Shown: piece after piece, positions 679-4,863 of the stretch
How positions within the stretch are numbered: position 1 is the first letter of the stretch
Layout: each line of letters begins with the position of its first letter
Position numbers and translations under genes: made by a program
Assembly (NCBI GenBank): GCA_017625775.1
Contig: JAGAKE010000001.1
Span: 62,001 to 126,000 of the forward strand
Direction of reading: 5' to 3'
DNA: 64,000 nucleotides
Source of the DNA: Fibrobacteraceae bacterium
Lineage (GTDB): Bacteria; Fibrobacterota; Fibrobacteria; Fibrobacterales; Fibrobacteraceae
Notes under the pieces: model-generated
Told to the model about the DNA's origin: nothing
What the model saw: the letters and a program-made list of their open reading frames with translations, nothing else
Database searches by the model: none

Positions 679-870
679 GTTCTCCCAGCGTGCTACCGCA
701 ACAACAATGGCAATTTCAACAACGCGGGCAAGAACGCGAATTTCTGGAGTGCTACAGAGAATGGTGAGAACAACGTTTACAACTTGAACTTGAATTACAA
801 CAACGAGAATGCGAACCTGAACAGCAACAATAAGGACAAAGCAAACTCGGTTCGTTGCCTCCGGGACTCC
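679..870 (+). repeat. DGR template repeat (TR)
   Basis: This 192-bp stretch is the non-coding template copy of the variable repeat at 1761-1952, at a constant offset of 1082 with no gaps. Its codon-phase reading is packed with AAC and AAT, as expected when adenines mark the positions to be mutated. I count 36 differences between the copies, 31 at adenines of this copy. The other five are T-to-G, three T-to-C and one G-to-A. Unmutated blocks frame it: GTTCTCCCAGCG at the start and TCGGTTCGTTGCCTCCGG near the end. It sits between avd and the RT remnant, the usual TR position. The open frame running through it (514-930) is a by-product, not a gene. Confidence 0.93.
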
Positions 871-901
871 GAACTTTTTAATCAAATAATATTAGGTATA
901 A

Positions 902-1335
902 GTAAGAAAAAATGGAAATATATACCTTAATGATTTAGATCATTATATTAAACGAGAATTAAAAATTCGTAGTTATGTCGTTATGTAGATGACATGGTTT
1001 TGGTTCATAAAAATAAGGATGTGCTTCTGGAAAGTATTCCCAAAATACGAAGATTTTTAAAAGAAAAATTAAATTTAGAGCTTCATCCTAAAAAGATTTC
1101 ATTGCAGCCGGCGTATAATGGATTTCTTTTTTTAGGAGCGTATGTTTTGCCATATAGAATGTATCCAAGTAGAAGAATTGTCAAAAACTTTAAGGAAAGT
1201 ATGCGTGGTAATTATTTACTAAAAAAACAAAAGGAATTAGAAAAAAGTTATTTAGGATTATTTTCCCATTTTGATGCTTATAAACTTAGTCAAAAGATTA
1301 TATTTAAACACGAGATACAAGGAGAAACCTTATGA
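902..1335 (+). pseudogene. DGR reverse transcriptase, N-terminally deleted and frameshifted
   Basis: This is the C-terminal part of a DGR/retron-like reverse transcriptase. From 902 the frame reads NIYLNDLDHYIKRELKIRSYV, the helix that precedes the catalytic motif. It then breaks at about 977-979, where one base is missing. In the shifted frame it continues with RYVDDMVLVHK (YVDD from 982), then the downstream SLQP.YNGFLFLGAYVLPYR region and a basic tail to TGA at 1335. The palm motifs before YVDD and the whole N-terminal half are absent, so only about 145 codons remain of an enzyme normally well over 300 residues. The missing part lies between the template repeat and 902, which implies a deletion there. 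The last codons overlap the FISUMP start (ATGA). This copy cannot be an active polymerase. Confidence 0.88.
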
Positions 1336-1958
1336 AAAGTAAGCTACTCACAATAATTTCGATGTCATTGCTATTCACTGGAATGTCTTTTGCAGGGCAG
1401 CAAAAGGGAACGATGAAAGACCCACGCGATGGTCAAACCTACAAAACAGTGAAAATAGGCAAACAGGTTTGGATGGCGGAGAATTTGAACTATGATATTA
1501 AACATAGTTATTGCTATGATGAAGCCCCTGAAAATTGTCAAAAGTATGGCCGATTATACACTTGGGCTGCGGCAAATTATGTTTGCCCAAGTGGCTGGCA
1601 TTTACCAACTAAAGAAGAATTTGAAACTTTGATGTCAAATGTTGGTGGAAAAGAGACTGCAGGTAAAATGTTAAAATCAAAACAAGGGTGGGATCCATAC
1701 GAACATGAATTTGAGCATGCTTTGCAAAATGGTAATGGAATAGATAAATATGGTTTTAATGTTCTCCCAGCGGGCCTCCGCTACAGCTTTGGCAATTTCG
1801 GCGACGCGGGCAAGGACGCGAGTTTCTGGAGTGCTACAGAGTATGGTGAGAACTACGCTTACTACTTGTACCTGTATTACGACGGCGAGAATGCGTACCT
1901 GGGCCACAGCTCTAAGGACTTCGCTTACTCGGTTCGTTGCCTCCGGGGCTCCAATTAA
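1332..1958 (+). CDS. FISUMP-domain secreted protein, DGR target
   Basis: A 208-residue protein with an N-terminal signal peptide (cleavage near MSFA/GQQ), so exported. It then has the FISUMP domain: DPRDGQTYKTVKIGKQVWMA, ENLNY, paired cysteines (YCYDEAPENC), WAAANYVCPSGWHLPT, and a C-terminal GFNVLPAG...FWSATE...SVRCLR block. FISUMP proteins are a large paralogous family in Fibrobacter of unknown exact role. The fold resembles the C-type-lectin/sulfatase-modifying-factor group used by many DGR target proteins. Residues 144-207 are encoded by the variable repeat; substituted positions are mostly Tyr, Asp, Gly and Ser where the template has Asn, while FWSATE and SVRCLR are constant. The ATG overlaps the RT stop (ATGA) and follows GGAGAAACCTT, so it was translated from the DGR operon. 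I infer surface display and ligand binding. Confidence 0.9.
   Translation: MKSKLLTIISMSLLFTGMSFAGQQKGTMKDPRDGQTYKTVKIGKQVWMAENLNYDIKHSYCYDEAPENCQKYGRLYTWAAANYVCPSGWHLPTKEEFETLMSNVGGKETAGKMLKSKQGWDPYEHEFEHALQNGNGIDKYGFNVLPAGLRYSFGNFGDAGKDASFWSATEYGENYAYYLYLYYDGENAYLGHSSKDFAYSVRCLRGSN
1761..1952 (+). repeat. DGR variable repeat (VR) in FISUMP gene
   Basis: In-frame 192-bp copy of the template repeat at 679-870, ending two codons (AAT, TAA) before the gene's 3' end. Adenine positions of the template are replaced by all three other bases (for example AAC to TAC, GAC, GGC or AGC; AAA to TTC), whereas template G, C and T are nearly all kept. Both ends are matched blocks, the 3' one being the likely site where mutagenic homing initiates. 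Because the RT remnant beside it is broken, the present VR is probably a frozen product of past diversification. Confidence 0.93.
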
Positions 1959-2060: not shown

Positions 2061-2263
2061 TGTTATGGCAAATGTAGTGTGAATTGTCATCGCGAACGTA
2101 GTGTGGCGATCTACTTGCGAAAAAATTCCTTCTCCCTTGCTCACTATGCTTTTTACATAACATAGAAGTTTTCAAAAAATGTAATCCAAACTTTGCACAA
2201 TTTTCAAAAAACAAAACTCACTTAAAATTAAAACACAAGAGCGTCGGCCGAGGAAGGGGAGGC

Positions 2264-2312
2264 TTGGAGGGGACCGTGCGGCCTTCGCAACTCCGAGCCG
2301 GGTCCCCTCCAA
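2264..2312. repeat. 12-bp perfect inverted repeat
   Basis: Arms TTGGAGGGGACC (2264-2275) and GGTCCCCTCCAA (2301-2312) pair perfectly around a GC-rich 25-base centre. It lies in otherwise AT-rich DNA and no gene starts or ends next to it. Confidence 0.6.
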
Positions 2313-2633
2313 AGAAAAGAATGCAAAAAAAAATAAGTCCTCGCGAGAGACAAAACCCGCACGAGTGACGAAACATACCCACAAGAGACAAAGCAAAAAC
2401 TAAAATCCCTCGCAAACACTATTATCAAAAATCAAACCTTACTAAAAATTAAAACACAAAAGCATTGGTTCAGGAGTAGTGAAGTGAATAACAATGGAAT
2501 TGTTTTAACTACAAAATTCTTTTGAATTTTTAAAAATTTCAATGTTTAAATTACTTTGGAATGAGAAATGATGATATTGTGTTAGGGATAGTAGCCCGGT
2601 AGGGGACGGACTCGTGAAACGAGGCTGGACGGA

Positions 2634-3651: not shown

Positions 3652-4863
3652 ATGGCTATTTCCGAAAAAGGATTCTTGCGAGGTTCTCTAATTCGAACCA
3701 CTCCCGTTTGGGGATTTATTTTCACTTTAATATTTTTATTGGTCGCTCCCTTGTCGGTGAACGCTTCGCCAATTAAACCGCAGGCTTTGTCAAATGGTGG
3801 GCGAATCGCTTCGGAAACACAATTAGAAGAAATTTCAGAAACGGTTCGACCAGGTGCTTCTGGGTATTTTGCCTTAGGAACTTATTATTTTCCACACCCT
3901 GGGCAAACTGCATTAAAAAGTGATTTTGGCCGGCACGAAGGCTTTGCTTTTAGGCAACGTTTATCCATGTATTTTTCTGGTCCTCTAGGCAAGTCCAATT
4001 GGTCATTAGGTTTTCTTTGGTGGTTTGAACGTCATGGTTTTGATTCCGAGGATTTTATACTCTTTCCTGAGTATGGGCAATTTTCCTTAATTCGTAATGT
4101 GCAAACAGCCGGTTTGAATCTTTCTTTTAAACCATTGTCTTTTGCTTTGACTGGTGGTATTCAATATTCAAACCCAGAACATGTAGCAAGTGAAATTTAT
4201 TCAGTCGAATCAGACACGCTTTATGGTTTTGCTCAAGCTATGCTCGGCCCAATTTTAGGGCAATTTGTGTTTAATGAAAATGGTTGGACATCTGTTCGTG
4301 CGGCGTTACGTTTAGAATCTAAAGAAAATTTTGGTGGTGCTTCTTCGGGCTTTCAAACTTATTTGCCGAATTTAGATTTTTCGCTTTATCATGATGCATC
4401 AGATTCTATGCGTGTGACTTGGGAACAAAATCTTTTCAAACAAATTTTGTATGGTGAAGTGACTGCTTATTTTCCCGATTATGGTTTTCATTCAGCGGCT
4501 TTGAAATATTATCCGGACCCATCGCGACTTGTTTCGTTAGAAGCAACTTGCCTTCGAGAACCAGATGGTGATTTAGTTTTCGGTGGTGGAATTTCTATTC
4601 TGATGTTGCGCTTGGCGTATAATCACGCTCATGATATGAAAAATCTTTTTGGGTCTAAAGGAACATTTGTGTTTGAACTTTCTTTTGCTCTCGGAGCATC
4701 TGAAGGAAAAATGTTTGGTAGAAATGCAGCAAAAGCGGCTCCGATGGAATCTACTTCTCGGACTATATTTGAAAACGGCTCTTCTTACAAACCTCCAAAA
4801 GAAGAAAGTGAAGGTGTAAAAGAAATTACAGCCAAAGGAATTCGTCGGGAGAAAGCAAAATGA
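3652..4863 (+). CDS. Putative outer-membrane beta-barrel protein
   Basis: 403 residues with an N-terminal hydrophobic signal (about residues 18-38, ending SVNAS). It continues with alternating aromatic and polar strands typical of barrel proteins (GYFALGTYYF, RQRLSMYF, WSLGFLWWF, LYGFAQAML, ILYGEVTAYF). A charged Lys/Glu-rich tail after about residue 360 is unusual for a barrel and may be periplasmic. No family was recognised. The stop overlaps the next start by four bases (ATGA), so it is probably co-expressed with the lipoprotein downstream. Confidence 0.65.
   Translation: MAISEKGFLRGSLIRTTPVWGFIFTLIFLLVAPLSVNASPIKPQALSNGGRIASETQLEEISETVRPGASGYFALGTYYFPHPGQTALKSDFGRHEGFAFRQRLSMYFSGPLGKSNWSLGFLWWFERHGFDSEDFILFPEYGQFSLIRNVQTAGLNLSFKPLSFALTGGIQYSNPEHVASEIYSVESDTLYGFAQAMLGPILGQFVFNENGWTSVRAALRLESKENFGGASSGFQTYLPNLDFSLYHDASDSMRVTWEQNLFKQILYGEVTAYFPDYGFHSAALKYYPDPSRLVSLEATCLREPDGDLVFGGGISILMLRLAYNHAHDMKNLFGSKGTFVFELSFALGASEGKMFGRNAAKAAPMESTSRTIFENGSSYKPPKEESEGVKEITAKGIRREKAK

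Follow-up and report, generated by a model that had tools for sequence, protein, structure and literature searches.

The stretch of DNA analysed here carries a diversity-generating retroelement (DGR) in decayed form. In our preferred reading, to which we give a probability of about 0.86, it is what remains of a multi-target DGR whose ancestor rewrote the 3' ends of five FISUMP genes and which then underwent a deletion in its reverse transcriptase (RT) gene, a frameshift and drift of its template repeat (TR). The window, meaning the whole stretch of 64,000 nucleotides, corresponds to positions 62001-126000 of contig C32 in a genome assembly (G000) of 1.98 Mb in 55 contigs that is 71% complete. 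The features referred to below, numbered by window position, are as follows.

1-568, + strand: 3' part of the avd gene; the full open reading frame of 249 aa lies at G000:C32:61819-62565 and starts 182 bases upstream of the window
to about 148, + strand: Avd residues 1 to ~110, MutS domain I-like by structure model and fold search
about 164-481, + strand: Avd residues ~116-221, a four-helix bundle by profile and fold matches
679-870, + strand: TR, with private bases at 691, 776 and 840
917-1335, + strand: RT remnant, the C-terminal ~130 aa only (NIYLN...YVDD...); the N-terminal ~220 aa, including LPIGNLTSQ, are gone
1332-1958, + strand: target gene encoding a FISUMP (Fib_succ_major) protein of 208 aa with a predicted N-terminal Sec signal peptide
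1761-1952, + strand: variable repeat (VR), covering the 64 codons that precede the final Asn codon and the stop in the FISUMP gene
1964-1978, + strand: GGGAGC-GTA-GCTCCC, a candidate hairpin or cruciform immediately beyond the VR and the stop codon on the 3' side
1953-2095, + strand: 143-bp 3' target-flank element containing the hairpin, found complete or in part downstream of each of the genome's five VRs

One template and five FISUMP targets

When the two repeats were aligned by program, they matched without gaps over 192 bp and differed at 36 positions, of which 31 are A in the template, 4 T, 1 G and none C; the figures of 36 and 31 are those that a first-pass annotation of this DNA had counted. 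The A-site changes from TR to VR comprised 15 A>T, 13 A>G and 3 A>C. The blocks of identity that the annotation had described at both ends were recovered as the first 12 bases and, at the 3' end, the run TCGGTTCGTTGCCTCCGGG; outside 679-870 and 1761-1952, identity ends. Differences were found at 31 of 65 A sites vs 5 of 127 non-A sites (Fisher p=7e-13), which bears out the adenine bias that the annotation had put forward for checking, while the same test with the roles of TR and VR swapped gave p=1, and the copy at 679-870 is therefore the template.

A search of the genome with the TR returned four further VRs, on contigs C32 (C32a below), C48, C54 and C13, all of them in FISUMP genes and at the 3' end, so that one template matches five dispersed FISUMP genes among about 20. 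Each of the five VRs lies in the 3' part of its gene and differs from the TR mainly at template adenines, as in DGRs: of ~65 A sites, 31 (window), 32 (C32a), 31 (C48), 31 (C54) and 34 (C13) differ, and of about 125-127 non-A sites, 5, 8, 12, 9 and 12, in the same order. The remaining FISUMP genes of the genome gave poor or partial alignments to the TR and were about 30-55% different at non-A sites. Since the five genes are close to the TR at non-A sites and the others are far from it, the match exceeds plain FISUMP protein homology. About a quarter of the FISUMP genes in this genome (about 5 of 20) are DGR targets; the annotation had named a single target, and its gene stands while its number does not. 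Its further proposal of a receptor or adhesin role for the whole FISUMP family is an extrapolation, given that proportion.

That the target is a FISUMP protein, also claimed in the annotation, was borne out by profile searches of the window gene (204.5 bits and E=1.9e-60 to TIGR02145, for which the curated cut-off is 41.65; 111.8 bits to PF09603). By eye, the predicted signals of the five targets were of lipoprotein type in C48, C32a and C54 and of Sec type in the window and C13, and the C48 target also showed a weak match to collagen repeats. A PDB sequence search with the FISUMP protein gave nothing useful, and a fold search with a structure model gave weak C-type-lectin matches only. A C-type-lectin-like fold of the FISUMP domain would follow from its relationship to Lcl_C, which the window target matches at E=5.5e-6, under the Pfam cut-off. 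The targets may be displayed at the cell surface and serve in binding.

The flank 3' of the targets is also shared. Copies of the 143-bp element follow the VR directly at C54 and C13 (95% and 91% identical to the window), and at C32a and C48 the element is separated from the VR by an 83-bp insertion; the hairpin is degraded at C32a, and only 55 matching bases are left at C48. In BPP-1, a hairpin/cruciform 3' of the VR is needed for efficient retrohoming (PMC3240598). Such a structure lies shortly 3' of the window VR, with a loop that differs in size and sequence (GTA vs the GRNA tetraloop of phage DGRs; PMC3240598). With a limit of 45 nt from the stop codon, a hairpin was found in 12 of the 17 VR genes counted (the window and intact relatives) vs 1.2 of 17 in shuffles, and by the same measure in 3.8% of random windows. 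Generic terminators were rejected as the origin of the VR hairpins, because none of 33 long open reading frames in the window and only 4 of 58 other open reading frames in the relatives had one. A second intergenic block (window 2207-2335) recurs at 82-93% identity beyond the 3' ends of the targets at C54, C13 and C32a. A partial copy of the 3' element also occurs at G000:C10:67990-68071, next to the remnant of a FISUMP C-terminus on the opposite strand; a sixth target at C10:67990 was rejected, as the site shares the element but adjoins that remnant and by eye has no VR.

Loss of the reverse transcriptase and probable drift of the template

An Avd-like gene before the TR and an RT remnant after it had both been noted from the sequence alone, and both are present. 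The RT remnant contains an in-frame stop (TAG, 986-988) and a frame change just before YVDD (982-993). The end of the TR lies 47 nt from the NIYLN codons in the window vs 650-704 nt in 11 relatives, and therefore about 600-660 bp have been deleted, the 5' two-thirds of the RT included. No second RT was found in the G000 assembly (71% complete), of which the stub is the sole RT. An intact DGR-type RT stands at the loci of relatives and a frameshifted stub in the window, which makes the window locus the remnant of a DGR and not a working one.

The template has changed as well. The TR bases at 691 and 840 are absent from all five VRs, and that at 776 is present in one VR only; at 840 the TR has A, yet all five VRs have C, where a template A should scatter. 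The simplest reading of these comparisons is that the TR drifted after the last retrohoming. Diversification at A sites is seen in the intact relatives (below), and the bases private to the TR argue against its continuing in the window copy. This DGR copy is almost certainly dead, and we infer that retrohoming at the locus has come to a halt.

The avd gene is open over 249 aa, which suggests either that the element died recently or that an RT works on it in trans. If an RT encoded in the unassembled part of the genome were supplied in trans, the element could still be active and the local stub irrelevant, and this possibility would agree with a full-length avd, a genome that is only 71% complete and the occurrence of more than one DGR locus per genome in several relatives (G028, G011, G047). 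We nevertheless hold it to be improbable, because the assembly yielded no RT but the stub, any transfer after the TR changes would have copied 691 and 776 into the VRs, and an A at 840 in the template should not have given C in every VR. Moreover, the sequence following the TR, which in BPP-1 holds the 3' spacer of the template RNA (PMC12875486), falls within the deleted stretch. It is more improbable still that the deletion and frameshift are errors of assembly or binning in an ordinary working DGR: the assembly is metagenome-like, with 55 contigs, and the deletion junction was seen in the assembly alone, but two independent RT lesions and the drift of the TR all agree, and other remnants with avd and TR, in which no RT was found, occur in the family (G055:C1 and G049:C26).

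Intact relatives and known systems

The annotation had also proposed searching Fibrobacterota genomes for matching templates, and TRs by FISUMP genes were found across the Fibrobacteraceae. Of 111 Fibrobacteraceae genomes, 20 (with G000 among them) gave matches to avd and 29 gave matches to the RT; a profile search for avd gave matches, some covering only part of the protein, in 37 of 168 Fibrobacterota genomes. The usual gene order in the relatives is FISUMP - avd - TR - RT. In the TR/VR pairs found, the VR lies within the FISUMP gene, and mismatches fall at template A in 27/28, 27/27, 22/22, 16/16 and 32/32 cases. The full-length RTs of relatives carry LPIGNLTSQ and YVDD, and their closest PDB entry is the BPP-1 DGR RT 8ub7 (E=5e-32; next E=1.5e-6). 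Named carriers include the cultured Fibrobacter intestinalis ATCC 43854, whose locus is intact, as well as F. succinogenes MAGs and Candidatus Fibrimonas termitidis. Since the same cassette was present in 12 IMG/VR viral contigs, some of them fragmentary, as well as in genomes, cellular and phage versions both exist. In phage/prophage cassettes (IMG/VR contigs L183-L192; L093, L096, L098, L099), the FISUMP domain is joined to another N-terminal part, MSVASEITRLNGAKADI..., with the look of a phage structural protein. At two loci that keep avd, G055:C1 and G049:C26, no RT was found. At G055:C1:194000-203000, a TR-like repeat at about 4278-4479 is decayed and chimeric, with an A-biased 5' part and a diverged, FISUMP-like 3' part; this locus suggests repeated RT loss with avd kept. 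At G049:C26:28000-37000, an avd-like gene lies between FISUMP genes.

Comparison of VRs among relatives, the further check put forward in the annotation, showed that near-identical loci differ at template-A positions and almost nowhere else in the VR. Between the near-identical loci G028:C9 and G058:C5, from different genomes, the TR differs at 0 of 198 positions and avd at 4 of 722, while the VR differs at 24 of 64 template-A positions and 0 of 134 others. Between G028:C27 and G047:C67, the TR differs at 0 of 142 positions and the VR at 17 of 41 A vs 1 of 95 non-A positions. Among nine closely related prophage/phage copies, the pairwise VR difference was 43.7% at A vs 5.4% at non-A positions, with avd 2.8% and the TR about 4-5% different; the upstream part of the FISUMP gene differs by 20%, and the nine copies therefore hold targets of more than one type. 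By these sequence differences, the DGRs of the intact relatives look active. That the TR is merely a truncated FISUMP paralogue (a pseudogene), with a bias arising from Asn-rich variable codons and not from mutagenic reverse transcription, is hardly credible, for although the TR itself reads as a FISUMP C-terminus (TIGR02145 E=9e-11), the five genes are 91-96% identical to it at non-A sites where other FISUMP genes are ~30-55% different in partial alignments, relatives with identical TRs have VRs differing at A sites only, and in relatives avd and RT adjoin the TR.

The reading as a decayed multi-target DGR starts from what was counted, namely the repeats, the A-bias, the five targets, the RT damage and the intact and variable relatives. 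In the ancestor, an avd-TR transcript, Avd and the DGR RT would have made cDNA from the TR with errors at adenines, and this cDNA would have overwritten the VRs, the 3' ends of at least five FISUMP genes that lie scattered and are each marked by the same hairpin-bearing 3' flank. The varied residues would have been carried by the C-terminal FISUMP domain, a putative relative of the C-type-lectin-like Lcl_C domain, on three predicted lipoproteins and two predicted secreted proteins. A deletion of about 600-660 bp would then have run from just after the TR into the RT, followed by the frameshift and the onset of drift in the TR, leaving an open avd gene, the template, an RT stub and five frozen variants. 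On this reading, the window clearly illustrates how a DGR can die and leave several frozen variants behind.

In Fibrobacter, FISUMP domains make up a large family that marks the lineage and has had no function assigned to it. Chromosomal DGRs that diversify exported or lipoprotein C-type-lectin-like proteins are familiar from Legionella (LdtA) and Treponema denticola (TvpA), and the Treponema DGR has several remote targets. The window locus is unlike both in its FISUMP target, its MutS_I-like Avd fusion and the lack of any working RT found. Likenesses to the BPP-1 DGR (Mtd, Avd, bRT) are the A-specific TR/VR pair, the four-helix bundle of Avd, the nearest RT structure (8ub7) and the hairpin 3' of the VR; differences are the FISUMP target, the ~110-residue MutS domain I-like extension of Avd, the five dispersed targets and the destroyed RT. 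Targets with Fib_succ_major domains were reported for DGRs in human gut metagenomes in 2014 (PMC4159848) and in Bacuni phages (PMC8143477), and have been listed as common (PMC8934634). Because such targets are already published, DGR membership is ordinary, and the window locus is a degraded member. The human-gut DGRs with Fib_succ_major or DUF1566 (Lcl_C) targets (PMC4159848) and those of the Bacteroides uniformis Bacuni phages (PMC8143477) share the C-terminal target domain family but belong to other lineages, whereas the window DGR lies in the lineage after which FISUMP is named. No DGR study of Fibrobacter FISUMP genes was found in the literature searched, the major DGR surveys being outside its reach.

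One FISUMP protein has been detected in a cell-envelope proteome, with more peptides on cellulose (PMC4619616). The finding that some FISUMP C-termini are hypermutation targets, in cells and in prophages, turns a 'ligand-binding domain' into a concrete and testable hypothesis. The intact and visibly active loci of the relatives would have members of the family serve as evolvable domains, probably for binding, and F. intestinalis ATCC 43854 is a strain in culture whose element is intact.

The N-terminal domain of Avd

The less expected part of the system is an Avd with an extra, MutS domain I-like N-terminal domain. The accessory protein itself is recognizable as Avd. The window protein matches NF033474 (DivGenRetAVD) weakly (22.5 bits, cut-off 80) and its relatives do so more clearly, the C-terminal ~105 residues matching NF033474 in 12 of 13 relatives and bAvd (PF22296) in 6. 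The four-helix bundle has fold matches to the Avd structures 4dwl and 8ub7, and the C-terminal part is matched, at E 5e-12 to 2e-6, by 118-127-aa reference Avds of phages from Bacteroides, Pseudomonas, Burkholderia and Shewanella. The N-terminal ~110 residues are absent from the 118-141-aa Avds of the phage DGRs examined, including the 127-aa Avd of the Bacuni phage locus.

The model of the N-terminal domain alternates strands and helices, with pLDDT ~83-96 over most of its length. A fold search with it matched Taq MutS (1ewq, 1nne); the probability was 0.98-0.99, though with E 0.04-0.2, and 57 residues superposed at 1.6 A for one chain. The Pfam profile of MutS domain I (PF01624) reached the Pfam cut-off on the Avd of one relative and fell just under it on another, with 1 hit among the 13 relatives' Avds (E=0.006); a Pfam search with the window Avd gave no hit, and a PDB sequence search with the Avd profile gave nothing useful. 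In a profile-to-profile comparison, Avd and Fibrobacterota MutS were collinear over 75 columns at E=0.009 with a low hhalign probability (4.5%), and controls aligned over 12-21 columns only, with clearly lower scores. Besides the order of strands and helices, the two domains have in common the GFP motif and the wedge Phe; the Phe was kept in every Avd where the Phe-X motif was found (36 of 38 sequences). They differ in that Avd contains no other MutS domain, that the MutS-like domain is fused to Avd and that the Phe-X-Glu motif by which MutS reads mismatches is replaced by Phe-X-Gln/His/Lys/Arg: Glu was found in none of the sequences, the residue being Q in 30, H in 3, K in 2 and R in 1. In MutS of E. 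coli, the wedge Phe makes a stacking contact with the base at the mismatch, and a Glu-to-Gln change leaves the protein unable to tell mismatched from matched DNA (PMC3848065).

We think it likely that the N-terminal domain of Avd is homologous to MutS domain I. As a working hypothesis, it may be a DNA-binding module derived from MutS domain I, perhaps one that holds the cDNA:VR heteroduplex or kinked target DNA. A more specific and rather doubtful proposal is that the wedge Phe of Fibrobacterota Avds inserts into either of these substrates, the heteroduplex with its mismatches or the kinked DNA, and would thereby occupy mismatches without a repair signal, steering or protecting the mutated strands from mismatch repair, and that repeated DGR loss in the lineage leaves frozen families of FISUMP surface proteins. 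If true, a mismatch-recognition-like module in a DGR accessory protein would give a fresh hint as to why mutated cDNA is able to survive in the cell. The literature searched makes no mention of a MutS domain with Avd; it did not cover major surveys (e.g. doi 10.1093/nar/gkx1150), and novelty is unproven.

A separate MutS-like gene in other DGRs was considered and rejected, as avd is immediately preceded, in the DGRs of Burkholderia and Shewanella phages, by genes for Lcl_C-type proteins that are not MutS-like. In the DGRs of Burkholderia phage Magia and Shewanella phage QDWS, two neighbouring small genes lie upstream of avd in each; one of the pair is annotated as a lectin-fold DGR target (in Magia) and the other scores as Lcl_C-type, and both may be targets.
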